Shown: piece by piece, positions 2,703 through 64,000 of the stretch
Position numbering within the stretch: position 1 is the first letter of the stretch
Layout: each line of letters begins with the position of its first letter
DNA from: Planococcus halocryophilus
Lineage (GTDB): Bacteria > Bacillota > Bacilli > Bacillales_A > Planococcaceae
DNA: 64,000 nucleotides
NCBI RefSeq assembly: GCF_001687585.2
Contig: NZ_CP016537.2
Span: forward strand, 1,894,001-1,958,000
Direction: 5' to 3'
Notes under the pieces: model-generated
Databases searched by the model: none
What the model was told of the DNA's origin: nothing
The model's input: only the letters and a program-made list of their open reading frames with translations
Made by a program: the position numbers and the translations under genes

Positions 2703-3803
2703 CTACTTTCGTAAAGCAATTATCCGGGCTACAGCAGTTTCAGCAGAATGCAGTGCGCCTTCGAGATGGCCACTAAATTGAGCATTGGTTTCTGTTCCAG
2801 AAAAAATCAACTTTTCTTCCCATAAGCCCGAAATCGGTGGTTGACCATAGCTTGCGTAATTTTTAAATGGGCTCGAGTCTTCTAAAACTGCAGTTTCAGC
2901 ATCATTGGACCAATCTTTATACAAAATGGCTAGTGGATTTTCAGCATCCCTTCCAAAAAGCTTGACCAATTGATTCGTTACCAATTCCGCGATTTTTTCT
3001 TGTCCCATCTCTTGGCGTACTTCTGAAGTTATTCCGAAAAAGCCAAATAACGCTCCTGCTCCATCAATAGGTGAAGCATCATAAATTTCTTGCAGTGGAC
3101 CTGCTGAACTTAACACAAGACCGGACAATCCAGAATCTCTCCAAAATGGTCGTTCATACACAGCTACTGCTTTAGCTTGAGAACCCATCCATGTCGGTTT
3201 TCCCGTAATATCCGCCATAAGTTCTGCAGGTAAAGCCGGTGAAAATTCAATATGACTTGCAACAAGACGAGGCGGCAATGCCATAATGACATGAGCAGCT
3301 GTAACTTGTTTTCTCTCCCCCTCAGCTTTTTCTACTTCAACTGTAATTTCCCCTGCTTGATCTAAAAAAATTTTACTGACTCGCGTTTCAAGCTCAATAA
3401 TAGAAGAAGGAATGGTCTTTGCTAATGCATCTATTAACGACTTCATTCCCCCGGTAATCCGAACTCCTCTTTCATGAACGTTTTCTTGCATTAAACAGCG
3501 TTCAGGTGGCTTTCTTTGAAATCGTTCAACTAGTAAGTCTCCGTCATTTTGTTGAACAAAAGTTTCTAGACCGAGTTTACTCACAAATCCTGCAATCTTC
3601 GGCTCATATTGAGGCCAAAACCATGTTGGTCCAAGATCAAATCTACCTAAATTTTCTTGGTTTGGTACAGATGCACTTAAAATTCTGCCCCCTAATCTAT
3701 CTCTTGCTTCGATAACTTTACAGGCTATTCCTTGCTCAGTTAGCAATGATGCAGCGTGTAAGCCACTTAAACCTGCCCCTATAATAATAACTGGTTTTTG
3801 CAT
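2703..3803 (-). CDS. FAD-dependent flavin monoamine oxidase family protein
   Basis: A 366-residue amine oxidase-fold protein. The N-terminal dinucleotide motif IIIGAGLSGLHAA leads into the family signature EARDRLGGRI at about residue 36. The C-terminal FAD motif (LIFSGTETN, then GHLEGALHSAE) is intact. This superfamily oxidises primary or polyamines, or amino acids, to imines with release of hydrogen peroxide. At 366 residues it belongs to the short bacterial group, and its substrate cannot be predicted. A ribosome site (AGGAGG-like) precedes the ATG. It is the first gene of a likely two-gene unit with the small membrane protein. Confidence 0.88.
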   Translation of the reverse strand: MQKPVIIIGAGLSGLHAASLLTEQGIACKVIEARDRLGGRILSASVPNQENLGRFDLGPTWFWPQYEPKIAGFVSKLGLETFVQQNDGDLLVERFQRKPPERCLMQENVHERGVRITGGMKSLIDALAKTIPSSIIELETRVSKIFLDQAGEITVEVEKAEGERKQVTAAHVIMALPPRLVASHIEFSPALPAELMADITGKPTWMGSQAKAVAVYERPFWRDSGLSGLVLSSAGPLQEIYDASPIDGAGALFGFFGITSEVRQEMGQEKIAELVTNQLVKLFGRDAENPLAILYKDWSNDAETAVLEDSSPFKNYASYGQPPISGLWEEKLIFSGTETNAQFSGHLEGALHSAETAVARIIALRK

Positions 3804-58200: not shown

Positions 58201-58391
58201 AAAAAAGACCCCTTTAAATAAAGTGGTCTCAGGCGCATGCTCGGACCCTTCTCTCCAATTACTACGTAACGCTTACGAGGTTAGCTGTCGGATTCCGGAC
58301 TGAGAGTATCCCTTCTTACCTGAGTAAGATTCACCCCAAGACAAGCAGATGCTTGTCTGAATTGGTTTCCCCGTTCATGTGTGATTCAGCG
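58201..58391 (-). promoter_or_regulatory. ydaO/yuaA (c-di-AMP) riboswitch with terminator, ktrAB leader
   Basis: On the minus strand the conserved blocks follow in order: CGCTGAATC, GAACGGGGAAACCAA, TTGGGGTGAATC, AAGAAGGGATACTCTCAG, CCGAATCCGACAGCTAACCT-like text ending CGTAAGCG. A terminator (GAGACCACTTTA / TAAAGGGGTCT and seven T) lies between the aptamer and ktrA. c-di-AMP binding should promote termination and lower K+ uptake, as known for Bacillus ktrAB (yuaA). Confidence 0.95.
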
Positions 58392-58428
58392 ATTAAAAGG
58401 TTCATGGGTATTTTTTTCAACAGACTAA

Positions 58429-60308: not shown

Positions 60309-60415
60309 ACCGTTCTTAAAAGCACACCTAAATGAACGAAAAAAGAAGATGCTTAGAACCAGCATCTTCTCCAGTTTACTTTTATAGACTTCCGATAAGC
60401 TGCGATATGTAAACT
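60309..60415 (+). repeat. Dispersed hairpin element, copy I
   Basis: Left box CGTTCTTAAAAGCACAC, hairpin AGAAGATGCT / AGCATCTTCT, about 20 extra bases, right box CCGATAAGCTGCGATATGTA then AACT. Confidence 0.82.
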
Positions 60416-60535
60416 CTTATCTACGCAAAATAAAATCTTAAATCCTTATAGTATAGACTTTTGAATGTATCATTTTTCTTATTGCACTGCTAACTTCTTT
60501 AAATTAGCGTTTCTGGCTGTATCTCACTTTCTATC

Positions 60536-60582
60536 AAGTTACATTCAAACGAAGAAAAAGGCGACCTAACTGGTCGCCTTTT
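60536..60582. repeat. Half copy of the 32-bp palindrome and an adjoining terminator
   Basis: AAGTTACATTC at 60536-60546 equals the right arm of the 32-bp family; the left arm is lost. Ten bases on, AAAAGGCGACC / GGTCGCCTTTT (60556-60582) forms a symmetrical terminator. Confidence 0.7.
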
Positions 60583-60683
60583 ACGTTGTTAATTTAATTA
60601 TATCACTCTAAATTTAGAACTATAAGTCTTTAAATAATCAGTTTTTCTAGTAATCTTAAAAGAGATTGAATGGAGGCAAATTG

Positions 60684-61205
60684 ATGATAGATTATCGAAT
60701 ATTACCGAGAGAGAATTTTTCCGAGAAAATTGGGGAACTTGTTTCCATGTTGGAGCATACAAGAGAGGTTACATTGAGTGATGTTTCTGGTTTAAGTCAA
60801 AGCGATCTAGATTATGTACCCGACGGGAGTTCGAATTCCATTGGTTCTCTTTTACTCCATATGGCATCTATTGAGTTTGTTCATCAAATTGTTTCAAACG
60901 AAAATCGAGATCTAACAGAAAATGAATATATCAAATGGAGAACAGCCTTAGAACTTGGTGCCAAAGCAAGAGAAAATGTCAAAAAGCATTCACTTGATTA
61001 CTACTTGAAAGAATTACATCAAGTCAGAAAAGATACATTAACATTGCTGAAATCTAAGCAAGACAGTTGGCTAGCAGAAGAAAAGCAATGGAGTAACGGT
61101 ATTTCACATAATAATTATTATCTATGGTTCCATGTCATCGAGGACGAAATTAGTCATCGTGGGCAGATCAGAATGATTAAACGATTGTTGAAAGATGACC
61201 AATAA
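60684..61205 (+). CDS. DinB family protein (DUF664/DUF1572-like)
   Basis: A 173-residue four-helix-bundle protein. Metal-ligand histidines are visible in LLLHMASIEF near residue 55, and the pair in HVIEDEISHRGQIRM near 152-160. Roles vary: thiol transfer or unknown. GGAGGC fixes the ATG at 60684. It is followed after 33 bp by a full 32-bp palindrome. Confidence 0.86.
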   Translation: MIDYRILPRENFSEKIGELVSMLEHTREVTLSDVSGLSQSDLDYVPDGSSNSIGSLLLHMASIEFVHQIVSNENRDLTENEYIKWRTALELGAKARENVKKHSLDYYLKELHQVRKDTLTLLKSKQDSWLAEEKQWSNGISHNNYYLWFHVIEDEISHRGQIRMIKRLLKDDQ

Positions 61206-61238
61206 ACTTTGACTAGAGTTGGTATTTGAAAGAGGTTT

Positions 61239-61270
61239 GAATGTAACTTACTTACTATTAAGTCACATTC
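61239..61270. repeat. 32-bp palindromic site, copy 2
   Basis: GAATGTAACTTA, eight bases, TAAGTCACATTC (one mismatch). The pairing extends three more bases each side. It lies 34 bp after the DinB stop. Confidence 0.9.
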
Positions 61271-61396
61271 AAAACCAAGCTTCATTATTGGTGTACTATT
61301 CTTGAAATGCCTAGGAAAGGGCAATGAGAAATGCTATAGTCAAAAGGGCCGGAAATTTTATTAAATGGGCCATAGCTATTTCAGGAGGCGTTCATT

Positions 61397-61453
61397 ATGA
61401 CAAACAACATCACCGTTACCATCAATGAGTACAAGGGGATAACGCCTAATTAA
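61397..61453 (+). CDS. 18-codon open frame with a strong ribosome site
   Basis: AGGAGG and an ATG open a short frame (MTNNITVTINEYKGITPN) before TAA, 42 bp upstream of the acetyltransferase gene. It may be a leader peptide or the stump of a deleted gene. A GAAATGCTAT / ATAGCTATTTC hairpin lies just upstream (61325-61383). Confidence 0.35.
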   Translation: MTNNITVTINEYKGITPN

Positions 61454-61495
61454 CGTTTCTATTTCGCGTTCCCCGAAAATCGAAAGGGGAAAATT

Positions 61496-61951
61496 ATGAA
61501 TACAGAAAATGTGAAAATTGTCGAATTAAACACAGAAAACTGGTATGACTGCTGTGAACTAGAGGTATCAGAAGAACAAACGCAATACATGGAACCAAAT
61601 GCCGTATCGATCGCTCAGTCAAAGTTTGAAACTAGCTTAAAACCTTATGCCATCTATACAGGCGATAAAGCGGTTGGCTTTTTGATGTATAACTCTGTTC
61701 CGGAGGAACTTGACGGCTATTGGGTATACCGAATAATGGTAGACAAAGCCTTCCAAGGCCAAGGAATTGGGAAAGCTGCCACCAAACTGATGATTGCTGA
61801 GATGGCCAAATCACTGAATGCCACAAAAGTTGTGGTCGGCTATCACCCAGACAACTTGAATGCCCATCATTTATATGCGAGTTTGGGATTTGAGGACCAT
61901 GGAGATCGGTTTGGCAAGGAAATGGCCGTTGTAAAACAGCTAATCGATTAA
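61496..61951 (+). CDS. GNAT acetyltransferase (spermidine/spermine acetyltransferase-like)
   Basis: A 151-residue GNAT protein. VYRIMVDKAFQGQGIGKAAT near residue 77 is the acetyl-CoA loop, and the ending (VVVGYHPDNLNAHHLYASL, GF) fits the PaiA/BltD diamine and polyamine group. AAAGGGG lies before the ATG. A terminator and a 32-bp palindrome follow it. Polyamine detoxification is a reasonable guess, not shown. Confidence 0.86.
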   Translation: MNTENVKIVELNTENWYDCCELEVSEEQTQYMEPNAVSIAQSKFETSLKPYAIYTGDKAVGFLMYNSVPEELDGYWVYRIMVDKAFQGQGIGKAATKLMIAEMAKSLNATKVVVGYHPDNLNAHHLYASLGFEDHGDRFGKEMAVVKQLID

Positions 61952-61978
61952 TAAATTAAATCTATATCTTAGTGAAAG

Positions 61979-62004
61979 GGCCTTTTTAAAGGGCCTTTTT
62001 CTTT
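61979..62004 (+). terminator. Terminator of the acetyltransferase gene
   Basis: GGGCCTTTT / AAAGGGCC stem with a T-rich tail (TTTTTCTTTT), 28 bp after the stop. Confidence 0.75.
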
Positions 62005-62032
62005 TATAAAAAATCAGTATTTCCTTTGTTCT

Positions 62033-62064
62033 GAATGTAACTTAATTGCTAATAAGTTACATTC
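62033..62064. repeat. 32-bp palindromic site, copy 3
   Basis: GAATGTAACTTA, eight bases (ATTGCTAA), TAAGTTACATTC: perfect 12-bp arms. It lies 14 bp from the minus-strand stop of the TraB-like gene. Confidence 0.95.
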
Positions 62065-62078
62065 GAACAAGCGAAAAT

Positions 62079-62768
62079 TTATTTCTCAAATGGATTGATT
62101 ACCGTCCATCCTTTCCCTTCGAATAGTTTTTTCAGCATCCAAAGATGATCGCCGCCTACAATTAGTAAAATTCGCTCTTTTGGTTTCTCTAAAATCTCAC
62201 TAATGTTTTTGACAATGGTCAGTTCTCTTTCCATCCATTTGCTTAAGAAAGATACACCGATATTCTGTCCATTTTTTTCAACGGCTAAGAAAGAGAGATA
62301 CATCTCTTCCAAGTCCTTGGTCAATTCTGGGTTATTGAGTTTGCGATACGCCTCAAGTAATGTCTGGTCAGGATTAATTCCACCACTTTTTTTGCCAAAT
62401 GCCTCTACCGCTTGCCAAATGTTAGGATAATCTTCTTGGATTGATTGATTAAGTGTCACCATTTCCTCTTGAGTTAATGGCCCAGCCCAATTAACCGCAA
62501 AAACTGCTTTACGGTCCAGTTTAGTGGCTAATCTGAATCCTACTTGTTCGATTTCGTGCATCTCATAATCTTCTTCGCTCTTGGTAAAGCCTTTGTCTAA
62601 CTCCTCTTGCTCGCTTTTTTCCCATTCCAAAGCAATTTTGCCTGGGTTAAATGCTGCGAGAAAATCCACTAATTCTATAATTTCATTCTGCTTGTCCATC
62701 AAAACGTCCTTTTGGTAAGCAAAATGATGGGTACCTACCAAGACAATTTCCACTTTCTTTTCCATCAT
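62079..62768 (-). CDS. TraB/GumN-like (DUF5694) family protein
   Basis: A 229-residue cytoplasmic protein of the TIKI/erythromycin-esterase-like fold. It has LVGTHHFAYQKD near residue 8, IALEWEKSE near 45, and the late motif ILLIVGGDHLWMLKKLFE near 203. The GTHH, E and GxxH residues form the presumed metal or catalytic site of this group. No substrate is known. The ATG at 62768 is set by AGGGGGAAAAG. A palindrome stands at each end of the gene. Confidence 0.75.
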   Translation of the reverse strand: MMEKKVEIVLVGTHHFAYQKDVLMDKQNEIIELVDFLAAFNPGKIALEWEKSEQEELDKGFTKSEEDYEMHEIEQVGFRLATKLDRKAVFAVNWAGPLTQEEMVTLNQSIQEDYPNIWQAVEAFGKKSGGINPDQTLLEAYRKLNNPELTKDLEEMYLSFLAVEKNGQNIGVSFLSKWMERELTIVKNISEILEKPKERILLIVGGDHLWMLKKLFEGKGWTVINPFEK

Positions 62769-62826
62769 ACTTTTCCCCCTACTCTCTTTTTTAGATAGCT
62801 CCATTTATTACAGAAATCCTCAAAGT

Positions 62827-62858
62827 GAATGTAACTTAATTCACAATAAGTTACATTC
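62827..62858. repeat. 32-bp palindromic site, copy 4
   Basis: GAATGTAACTTA, eight bases (ATTCACAA), TAAGTTACATTC: perfect arms. It lies 21 bp from the minus-strand stop of the immunity-like gene. Confidence 0.95.
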
Positions 62859-62879
62859 AGTTTCTTTTCATAGGTGATC

Positions 62880-63365
62880 TTATTTAAACTCCTCAGGACT
62901 CCATGTTGCTATTTCATTTCCTGGAACAGCTACAATTAACCAGTCGCCACCCCCATATCCGTCCCTATCTCCAACTTGCCAGCATTCATAGTTTTCATGA
63001 TGTCCATTCACATACAATACTTTTCCGGACTCAAGCGAAATATACAAATGCGGCGAATCGTCTCCTAACCAAACATCTTTAACTTTTTCTCGCCTGTTTC
63101 TTAAAAGCAATTGAAAAGATTCTTCATCATCTAGTTCTTCTAAGTTTTCTTTAGAAATCGTTGTTAATCTCTCATAATTAGTAATGATAGCGACTTTCCT
63201 TATCTCGATGGTTAACCACAACATGTCAGGCTCTTGTTCAGAGAAATGTGAAAAATAGACGCGCACTACCCCAGGGCTACTGCCAAACTGGAACCCATCA
63301 ATTTGACTCCCAATAAGCAATTTTTTTAAAGCTCTCTCTGCAAAGTTTTTATTTTCTCTGTTCAT
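62880..63365 (-). CDS. Hypothetical protein, immunity-protein-like
   Basis: A 161-residue soluble protein. DGFQFGSSPGVVRVYFSH near residue 23, then WLTIEIRKVAII, LYISLESGKVLYVNGHH near 108 and VAVPGNEIATW near 147. This alternating strand pattern, with a Trp-rich end, recalls small immunity proteins (DUF6188-like) of polymorphic toxin systems. No toxin gene is in view. AAGGTGGGGGG precedes the ATG. It sits between two perfect palindromes. Confidence 0.55.
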   Translation of the reverse strand: MNRENKNFAERALKKLLIGSQIDGFQFGSSPGVVRVYFSHFSEQEPDMLWLTIEIRKVAIITNYERLTTISKENLEELDDEESFQLLLRNRREKVKDVWLGDDSPHLYISLESGKVLYVNGHHENYECWQVGDRDGYGGGDWLIVAVPGNEIATWSPEEFK

Positions 63366-63393
63366 TTCCCCCCACCTTTATCCTTCTCTTAAC

Positions 63394-63425
63394 GAATGTA
63401 ACTTAACTGCACATAAGTTACATTC
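63394..63425. repeat. 32-bp palindromic site, copy 5
   Basis: GAATGTAACTTA, eight bases (ACTGCACA), TAAGTTACATTC: perfect arms. It lies 22 bp from the minus-strand stop of the last gene. Confidence 0.95.
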
Positions 63426-63447: not shown

Positions 63448-64000
63448 TTATTTGTTCCGGATTCTGGCCCATAAACTTCGCATGTCTTTTTTGGGCGTCA
63501 CCGGCTCAGGTTCGTTTTCTTCCTCCTGTGAGGACGGTTCTGGTGCATTTATATCTGGTTCTTCGGATACTGGTGCGACTAGCTGCTTCTGATGTTCCTC
63601 TATCCTATCCAATTTATGCTTCATCTCTTCCAAGGCTTCCACAAACAAAGAATCCCGTTTTCGAATCTCTTCTTTCAAACTTCGGTTCTCTTCTTCAAGG
63701 ACTTCCAATTTTTTCAAGTTAACGGCTGTCGCGACGTCGTCATGACGCCGCGACGGTGTGCTTGTGACTTCGTTTTCTGGCGTTATTGTAGATGCACCTT
63801 TTAAGCTATCAGCAGCTTCTCTTACAGCATTCTCGAACGTTATGTCACCGCTTTTTGTGACCGTCATAGACTCCCGTAGCGCCACAACCTCTGTGACGGT
63901 GTAAATACGGCTGTTATTTTTGTTTCTTTTGAAGAGAATTCCTTCTGATTCAAAGCGAAGGCTGTATTTTCTTAACGTTGAAGGAGAAATATTCAATTGC
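63448..64000 (-). CDS. MerR-type HTH protein with DUF3967-like coiled coil (5' end cut by window)
   Basis: The frame runs off the right edge; 184 codons are seen. It opens inside a helix-turn-helix (QLNISPSTLRKYSLRFESEG), then a proline/threonine-rich linker, a coiled coil (about residues 95-145, LKKLEVLEEENRSLKEEI) and an acidic Pro-rich tail ending WARIRNK. MerR-like HTH proteins with a DUF3967 tail occur in Bacillales, often on plasmids or integrated elements near replication or partition genes. The TTG at 63996 is not the real start because the HTH begins before it. Confidence 0.72.
   Translation of the reverse strand, partial: QLNISPSTLRKYSLRFESEGILFKRNKNNSRIYTVTEVVALRESMTVTKSGDITFENAVREAADSLKGASTITPENEVTSTPSRRHDDVATAVNLKKLEVLEEENRSLKEEIRKRDSLFVEALEEMKHKLDRIEEHQKQLVAPVSEEPDINAPEPSSQEEENEPEPVTPKKDMRSLWARIRNK

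Follow-up and report, generated by a model that had tools for sequence, protein, structure and literature searches.

Plasmid-linked palindromic site arrays in Planococcus: a probable self-encoded, lox-like gene-cassette system

Integrons and, lately, the dif modules of Acinetobacter are the main known examples of gene-cassette systems that rely on site-specific recombinases. According to the parts of the description used here, dif modules depend on the host recombinases XerC and XerD, which act on asymmetric sites with 6-bp spacers and alternating orientation, modules being added as C/D pairs; the same parts call the system unique to Acinetobacter (PMC13141974). Chromosomal dif modules are also reported, as far as the consulted portion of a second source goes (PMC12907356). 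The present work deals with an array of 32-bp palindromes that separate single genes in a stretch of 64,000 nucleotides from the chromosome of Planococcus halocryophilus (NZ_CP016537.2, positions 1,894,001 to 1,958,000 of the forward strand), the whole of which is called the window. The lox sites, which offer another comparison, consist of an 8-bp spacer flanked by two inverted arms of about 13 bp and lie beside the gene of their recombinase; in engineered recombinase-mediated cassette exchange, ordered incompatible lox sites allow the DNA between them to be swapped. Taken together, the data are best explained, with a high degree of confidence, by a self-encoded, lox-like gene-cassette system of which the window carries an orphan array.

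The site pattern scored throughout was GAATGTAACTTA-N8-TAAGTTACATTC (12-8-12), mismatches being counted in both arms. The window contains four such palindromes (61239-61270, 62033-62064, 62827-62858 and 63394-63425), with 0 expected in 100 shuffles. All four, the first with one mismatch, had been reported in the initial annotation as possible binding or recombination sites delimiting single-gene cassettes; the recombination-site reading is now supported both by linkage to a recombinase gene and by the ending of homology at the sites. They are very probably the recombination sites of a plasmid-encoded tyrosine recombinase of 187 amino acids (aa). The gene of this protein (~187 aa, or 178 aa where the record breaks inside it) adjoins the array in all eight small contigs read whole. 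Among 38 small records chosen for one full-length recombinase (mostly whole contigs or plasmids, one being a piece of a 35-kb contig), the nearest site is always found 127-1141 bp upstream of the recombinase gene, all 108 sites are oriented opposite to the recombinase strand (one site, in L232, being counted twice) and seven records have a single site. The recombinase matches PF00589 (Phage_integrase) with 76.5 bits (cut-off 27.1, E 2.7e-21) and consists of the catalytic domain only, with little room for an N-terminal DNA-binding domain. Residues R47, K71/K74, H135, R138, H161 and Y170, the catalytic R-K-H-R-H-Y set, are invariant in ten aligned sequences (nine of the family and one host Xer-type protein). 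The protein scores below the NCBIfam equivalog cut-offs of XerC (57 vs 335 bits), XerD (53 vs 330) and XerS (30 vs 267) and reaches 32 bits with the integron integrase IntI (TIGR02249, cut-off 265).

In the genus, 18 of 46 genomes encode the recombinase at 60% identity or more, and the contigs that carry it all measure 5 to 35 kb. The protein belongs to a broad family (2824 relatives at E up to 1e-10). The site-specific recombinase whose search had been proposed is thus encoded beside arrays on plasmids of the genus. The source genome of the window does not encode it (its best match, E 6.6e-7, is a Xer-type protein), and its own arrays are therefore orphans. The plasmids also share other features. 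A MerR-like gene (a relative of one of three queries) occurs in 23 of the 38 recombinase records, always on the strand of the recombinase; at 25 loci a site of the class called T below lies within 400 bp after such a gene, its distance to the stop codon being 21-22 bp in 16 of them. Three rep-like proteins were scanned and two match Pfam Rep3_N/Rep3_C; a relative of one of these two Rep_3 proteins is present in 28 of the 38 records, and none was found in the other 10. Several short contigs that bear sites reach a coverage of 181 to 776, far more than the 33 and 39 of large contigs assembled together with them, and are thus probable multicopy plasmids.

Cassettes were defined as intervals of 120-2600 bp between like-oriented sites, and homologous pairs by at least 75% identity over 80% of both members. 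Removal of 21 redundant loci left 105 loci with 433 sites. The arms are nearly invariant, both being perfect at 280 of these sites. Removal of further duplicates (the L130/L252 overlap, terminal or multimer repeats in L182, L216, L232 and L237, and L236, which lies inside L237) left 103 loci with 411 sites. Of the 2761 unique ends of homology between loci, 842 (30.5%) fall at a site; when the sites are shifted, the mean is 6.7% and the largest of 200 shifts gives 8.6%. The value before the last removal was 29.1% of 3036. Gene gain or loss exactly at the sites, which the initial annotation had proposed to look for, is thereby corroborated. The 272 cassettes (median 497 bp) contain exactly one open reading frame (ORF) of at least 60 aa in 203 cases and none in 33. 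In the set that preceded the last removal, 61.8% of largest cassette ORFs have their stop no more than 60 bp from the next site. Among 151 homologous cassette pairs, flank homology is found on neither side in 124, on both in 2 and on one in 12, one side being unscorable in 13 (133 of 176 pairs moved before the last removal). Grouping at a minimum of 85% identity gave 43 families of mobile pairs in the set that preceded this removal. Pairs that reach 94% comprise 15 plasmid-plasmid, 17 chromosome-chromosome and 9 plasmid-chromosome cases, where chromosome means the named contigs of at least 100 kb and the fetched chromosome stretches.

The array of the window and its neighbouring genes are organized as follows, sites being named after their spacer class.

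60515..60546, plus strand: decayed recombination site, spacer CTTTCTAT; 5 of 24 arm positions mismatched, right arm good and left arm decayed
60666..61205, plus strand: DinB-superfamily gene between the decayed site and site A (PF04978 E 6e-12, PF05163 E 2.5e-8)
61239..61270, plus strand: site A (class A), spacer CTTACTAT; 1 mismatch
61271..62032, plus strand: cassette 1, with a GNAT acetyltransferase gene at 61496-61951(+) (PF00583 E 3.5e-16)
62033..62064, plus strand: site G (class G), spacer ATTGCTAA; 0 mismatches
62065..62826, minus strand: cassette 2, with a DUF5694 (TraB-like) gene at 62079-62804(-) (PF18950 E 8e-31)
62827..62858, plus strand: site C (class C), spacer ATTCACAA; 0 mismatches
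62859..63393, minus strand: cassette 3, with a DUF6188-like gene at 62880-63365(-) (weak match to PF19686, below cut-off)
63394..63425, plus strand: site T (class T), the array end adjoining the MerR-like gene, spacer ACTGCACA; 0 mismatches
63448..64000, minus strand, running on to ~64029 past the window: MerR-like helix-turn-helix gene of plasmid type with a long C-terminal tail (PF13411, 24.6 bits)

As first described, each interval of the window holds one gene in the ORF list and the sites lie close to stop codons: site A begins 33 bp past the DinB stop (61205), and the ends of sites G, C and T are 14, 21 and 22 bp from the stops at 62079, 62880 and 63448, respectively. Some details have to be amended. 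The half-site seen at 60536 is real but is the better half (60535-60546) of the decayed full site; the gene labelled TraB-like belongs to Pfam DUF5694, and the one labelled immunity-like resembles DUF6188 only weakly, below the cut-off. All three complete cassettes recur elsewhere in unrelated surroundings. Cassette 1 is found within unrelated flanks at 1969750-1970511 of the same genome (95.6%) and in genome G006 (94.8%); cassette 2 has a 99.6% copy in G045 and an 82.1% relative in L120, the flanks being unrelated on both sides; cassette 3 has six relatives at 78-93.6% (93.6% in G027 and G045), four of which share no flank homology on either side. Site T and the MerR-like gene, whose product has 193 aa (L039:3448-4029), are 87-89% identical to six stretches of other genomes, five of them on small contigs; given this match and the 22 bp between site T and the MerR-like stop, the T end of the array has the plasmid layout. 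A comparison with stretches of G045 and G006 for an orthologous empty site gave only patchy similarity.

Repeats of ~90 bp, pairs of which are 79-85% alike, recur near arrays, at 60389-60479 of the window and in the L039/L037 array regions, and are probably the other repeat family of the initial annotation. Their genome positions include 1954389-1954479, 1969575-1969664, 1963259-1963344 and 1966810-1966898, as well as 1217527-1217621, 1620311-1620402, 1623238-1623327 and 1630881-1630970. A general Rfam scan of the window, run without attC- or attI-specific models, gave a single match, a c-di-AMP (ydaO/yuaA) riboswitch at 58255-58401 (minus strand, 88 bits).

The complete source chromosome (3.42 Mb) carries 33 sites at up to three mismatches (reversed control 0). 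All are grouped in three clusters at 1.212-1.224, 1.621-1.632 and 1.955-1.972 Mb with none outside, which does not fit a common operator found upstream of promoters genome-wide. Sites occur in 45 of the 46 genomes of the genus, with 1 to 59 per genome, the controls all giving 0. Among 261 genomes of the family, a shorter form of the pattern matches 47, namely these 45, G062 and G186 (a single match), and the control pattern has a single match, in G199. A scan of named genomes with one site class retrieved 53 stretches, all from Planococcus or Planomicrobium except for one Gracilibacillus contig. This contig of G. boraciitolerans (L084) carries a T-C-G array adjoining a MerR-like gene, which was matched as two overlapping pieces, and may result from intergenus transfer or contamination. 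In a plasmid record of Lysinibacillus capsici (L165/L166, NZ_CP106866.1), a 13.5-kb unit akin to the Planococcus plasmid pNM8 is repeated about six times; each recombinase gene within the first 50 kb is preceded by one site, and drug-resistance genes are annotated. Viral contigs were also considered as carriers of sites and rejected: of the 19 stretches in which the inner arms are matched, no more than two include a site with four or fewer full-arm mismatches, one each.

The arms had been described as invariant and the spacers as variable. The spacers do differ, but not freely, as they fall into a few classes arranged in a fixed order. Sites were assigned to the nearest of the prototypes T (ACTGCACW), C (ATTCACAW) and G (ATTGCTAW) or to a looser class A. 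When plasmid arrays are read outward from the recombinase, 67 of 69 adjacent pairs conform to the order A, G, C, T, as compared with a mean of 37.6 and a maximum of 49 in 5000 shuffles made within plasmids; of the 31 plasmids with two or more sites, 28 have a T site in last place. Among sites with two or fewer differences from their prototype, spacer positions 2-7 are fixed at 94-100% in T and C and at 85-100% in G. At position 8 of these sites, T and A are nearly equal in number (61:57 in T, 52:48 in C and 41:33 in G), a freedom that sorting by prototype does not explain. The spacer thus looks like a six-base core that would need to match, followed by an outer base free to vary. Genuine spacer repeats inside one plasmid number 0, versus 5.9 in shuffles, 0.86% of which reach one or fewer; the apparent repeat in L232 is a 127-bp contig overlap. 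A few spacers look like T/G hybrids (L182 14973, L240 11462, G045:C1:1179964; e.g. ACTGCTAT, ATTGCACA/ATTGCACT).

Plasmid backbones could be compared across arrays. Strict thresholds gave 0 pairs; with looser ones, 16 pairs of plasmids share backbone on both sides of the array, and 14 of these are listed. Toward the recombinase, 12 of the 14 listed pairs lose homology at the first site of each plasmid. On the far side, 10 pairs regain it at the last site of each; in the remaining four, one plasmid regains it at or near that site and its partner 250-435 bp further on. No array match of 150 bp or more is seen in any of the 14. L175 and L246, for instance, are 97.5% identical over 2813 bp from site T. 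Between L239 and L218, backbone homology starts at site T of one plasmid and at site C of its partner, which would fit the loss of the C-T cassette through C x T recombination.

The orientation of the arrays follows replication. On the chromosomal contigs of 12 genomes in which dnaA and dif were located, the T sites share one orientation with respect to replication in 50 of 52 cases (hand count; the arrays of related species are not independent), the exceptions being G019:2979299 and G045:1784896. Thirteen genomes were tried and G006 gave no dif; sites on other contigs were left out, and for G045, where dif lies on the reverse strand, its position alone was used. Selection for co-directional genes may contribute to this polarity, as 175 of 239 largest cassette ORFs run against the site direction and 64 along it.

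Relatives of the recombinase in other genera point to a plausible origin, i.e., a single resolution site beside a plasmid recombinase gene that would later have multiplied in Planococcus. A single palindrome that starts with (G/T)AATGTA and has other inner arm letters lies upstream of the recombinase gene in 5 of 14 non-Planococcus loci, from Solibacillus, two Peribacillus species, Halobacillus and B. velezensis plasmids (535 bp upstream and past another gene in the latter), and Rummeliibacillus has a degenerate version of it. One B. velezensis plasmid, pLOH112 (L178), also carries five 31-bp palindromes (~ACATATGCTTTA-N7-TAAAGCATATGT) between genes, at 3333, 4400, 4829, 5597 and 6115. These are perhaps operators or another array; the comparison made for a second cassette array is uninformative, its only matches being three near-identical plasmids.

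Considering the anatomy of the sites and what is known of tyrosine recombinases, the following model can be proposed. Each 12-bp arm would bind one recombinase subunit, giving a dimer per site, and strand exchange would take place inside the 8-bp spacer core, as in Cre/loxP. On the plasmids, a direct-repeat array of sites lies upstream of the recombinase gene, usually with one gene per interval, and a MerR-like gene, where recognised, bounds the far side. As neighbouring sites differ in the inner six spacer bases, they would rarely delete the DNA between them, and the array would be fairly stable. Sites of like class on two arrays would pair and fuse the replicons, which would then be resolved at the same or at another like pair, thereby swapping the cassette or block between. 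The arrays captured by chromosomes, that of the window among them, lack a recombinase gene and form orphan cassette stores, open to possible action in trans by a resident plasmid. Such pairing of like cores predicts class-true exchange, and both spacer classes are kept in 62 of 124 moved pairs versus 21.1 by permutation (maximum 40; 65 of 133 before the last removal of duplicates). The case for spacer-addressed cassette exchange is evenly balanced. Somewhat more tentative still, at a little under even chances, is a natural recombinase-mediated cassette exchange operating genus-wide, in which four or more six-base addresses would stand in fixed order between recombinase and MerR-like gene, plasmid and chromosome would trade cassettes in register, and the direction of replication would set the polarity.

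Several observations weigh against a system of this kind. While the anatomy of the sites, their linkage, order and orientation and the cassette boundaries at them are direct observations, binding, catalysis, spacer matching and passage through a cointegrate are deduced, as is recombination itself, of which no event was observed. About 70% of homology ends fall away from sites. Cassettes also change address, since the other 62 of the 124 moved pairs lose the class match; these show that the spacer code leaks or that a second route exists. One contig of G001 counts in favour of the model, as it looks like two plasmids, the 8393-bp one of this genome and another of 7034 bp, joined within a stretch of 327 bp that starts at the edge of site A; it may, however, be a misassembly because the two share 327 identical bp there. 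A test of crossover position at 85% identity, in which position 8 is the same on the left in 22 of 32 cases and on the right in 35 of 65, goes in the expected direction and is not decisive. The conservation within classes is partly built in, as the prototypes were set after the arrays had been seen and sites were sorted to the nearest one; likewise, the lack of repeats within plasmids rests on the class order, as classes A and G alone give 0 versus 1.04 expected. In chromosomal arrays, the same spacer may occur more than once over a few kb, also in G045, which has a recombinase plasmid. Concerning the origin, the upstream palindrome was not found in 9 of the 14 non-Planococcus loci, and of 30 loci that belong to other genera of the family, 25 could be scored and 24 gave no palindrome at one or fewer mismatches, one of these 24 (G062) being a P. 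lenghuensis plasmid that has a site with two mismatches.

Class-changing moves would also fit a route by circles, as in integrons, which remains an alternative for them. In its general form, this explanation holds that a hairpin formed by the palindrome on one strand is recombined and that cassettes move as circles without spacer matching. The four sites of the window do fold as hairpins (with RNA parameters), direct repeats of the site flank the cassettes, class changes affect half of the moved pairs, and the polarity recalls the strand preference of integron arrays. However, six conserved and ordered spacer positions would be needless in a loop that has no pairing role, the recombinase falls far short of the integron-integrase cut-off, and no attI-like special site was noticed, although no dedicated search was made. 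A hairpin route therefore appears unlikely. Action of the host XerC/XerD on the sites, as on Acinetobacter pdif, is much less probable again. At least two tyrosine recombinases are encoded by all 46 genomes of the genus, and the site-bearing G012 and G014 show only two; yet the symmetric sites with their 8-bp spacers are unlike the dif of the genus (ACTTCCGATAATTTATATTATGTAAACT and near variants). Moreover, each of the 38 small records, which were selected for having a dedicated recombinase, has its gene next to the array. Slightly less credible than this is the idea that the sites are no more than short repeats on which ordinary homologous recombination acts, or copies of a dispersed palindromic element. 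The near invariance of the arms would suit either. For homologous recombination, however, 32-bp repeats whose spacers differ would be very short; neither reading accounts for the link with the recombinase, the uniform orientation or the order of the spacers, and at up to three mismatches no site lies outside the three clusters of the source genome. Finally, operators, centromere-like sequences or terminator hairpins, which the position of sites near gene ends and the terminator-like score of one of the four window sites might suggest, are the least probable of all, as the other three are not scored as terminators and both homology breakpoints and cassette mobility coincide with the sites.

The lox-like cassette system favoured here would be an apparently independent one that spans nearly a whole Gram-positive genus with a very small recombinase and short symmetric sites. 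It makes testable the evolution of an array from a plasmid resolution site, the role of the spacer as an address and the reason why polarity follows replication, and a recombinase with graded spacers could serve as a compact tool for ordered gene assembly. Among the matches listed in a search of the open-access literature (PMC), subscription papers and preprints being outside its scope, none names the system in Planococcus, and the consulted part of a sewage study with Planococcus and Rep_3 plasmids does not mention the recombinase (PMC9600348).

The nearest known system is that of the dif modules of Acinetobacter Rep_3 plasmids. In both cases, judging from the consulted parts of the dif-module description (PMC13141974), small plasmids, often of the Rep_3 type, carry accessory modules between sites of tyrosine recombinases, and modules also have chromosomal copies; cointegrates are intermediates there and are proposed as such here, and spacer identity matters there and may matter here. 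The Planococcus plasmids differ in encoding their own recombinase and in having symmetric arms (GAATGTAACTTA), 8-bp spacers, ordered classes and single cassettes, and the alternating C/D orientation of dif modules has no match in their uniformly direct sites. Integrons and CALIN clusters, according to the portion of PMC8618304 used, likewise combine a tyrosine recombinase gene with a neighbouring array of mostly one-gene cassettes, direct repeats and orphan arrays. Here, however, the recombinase is not IntI, site anatomy appears unlike attC, the spacer code is ordered and cassette ORFs are not uniformly oriented. With Cre/loxP and the recombinases that resolve plasmid multimers, the system shares inverted arms (here of 12 bp), an 8-bp spacer and an adjoining recombinase gene, and single-site relatives exist in other genera; it differs in that several heterospecific sites per plasmid delimit exchangeable genes and that a recombinase of this size has no room for an N-terminal domain. 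Ordered incompatible sites are also those of engineered lox cassette exchange, the Planococcus system being natural and leaky. It would work like dif modules and integrons and, by the tests made, is a member of neither.

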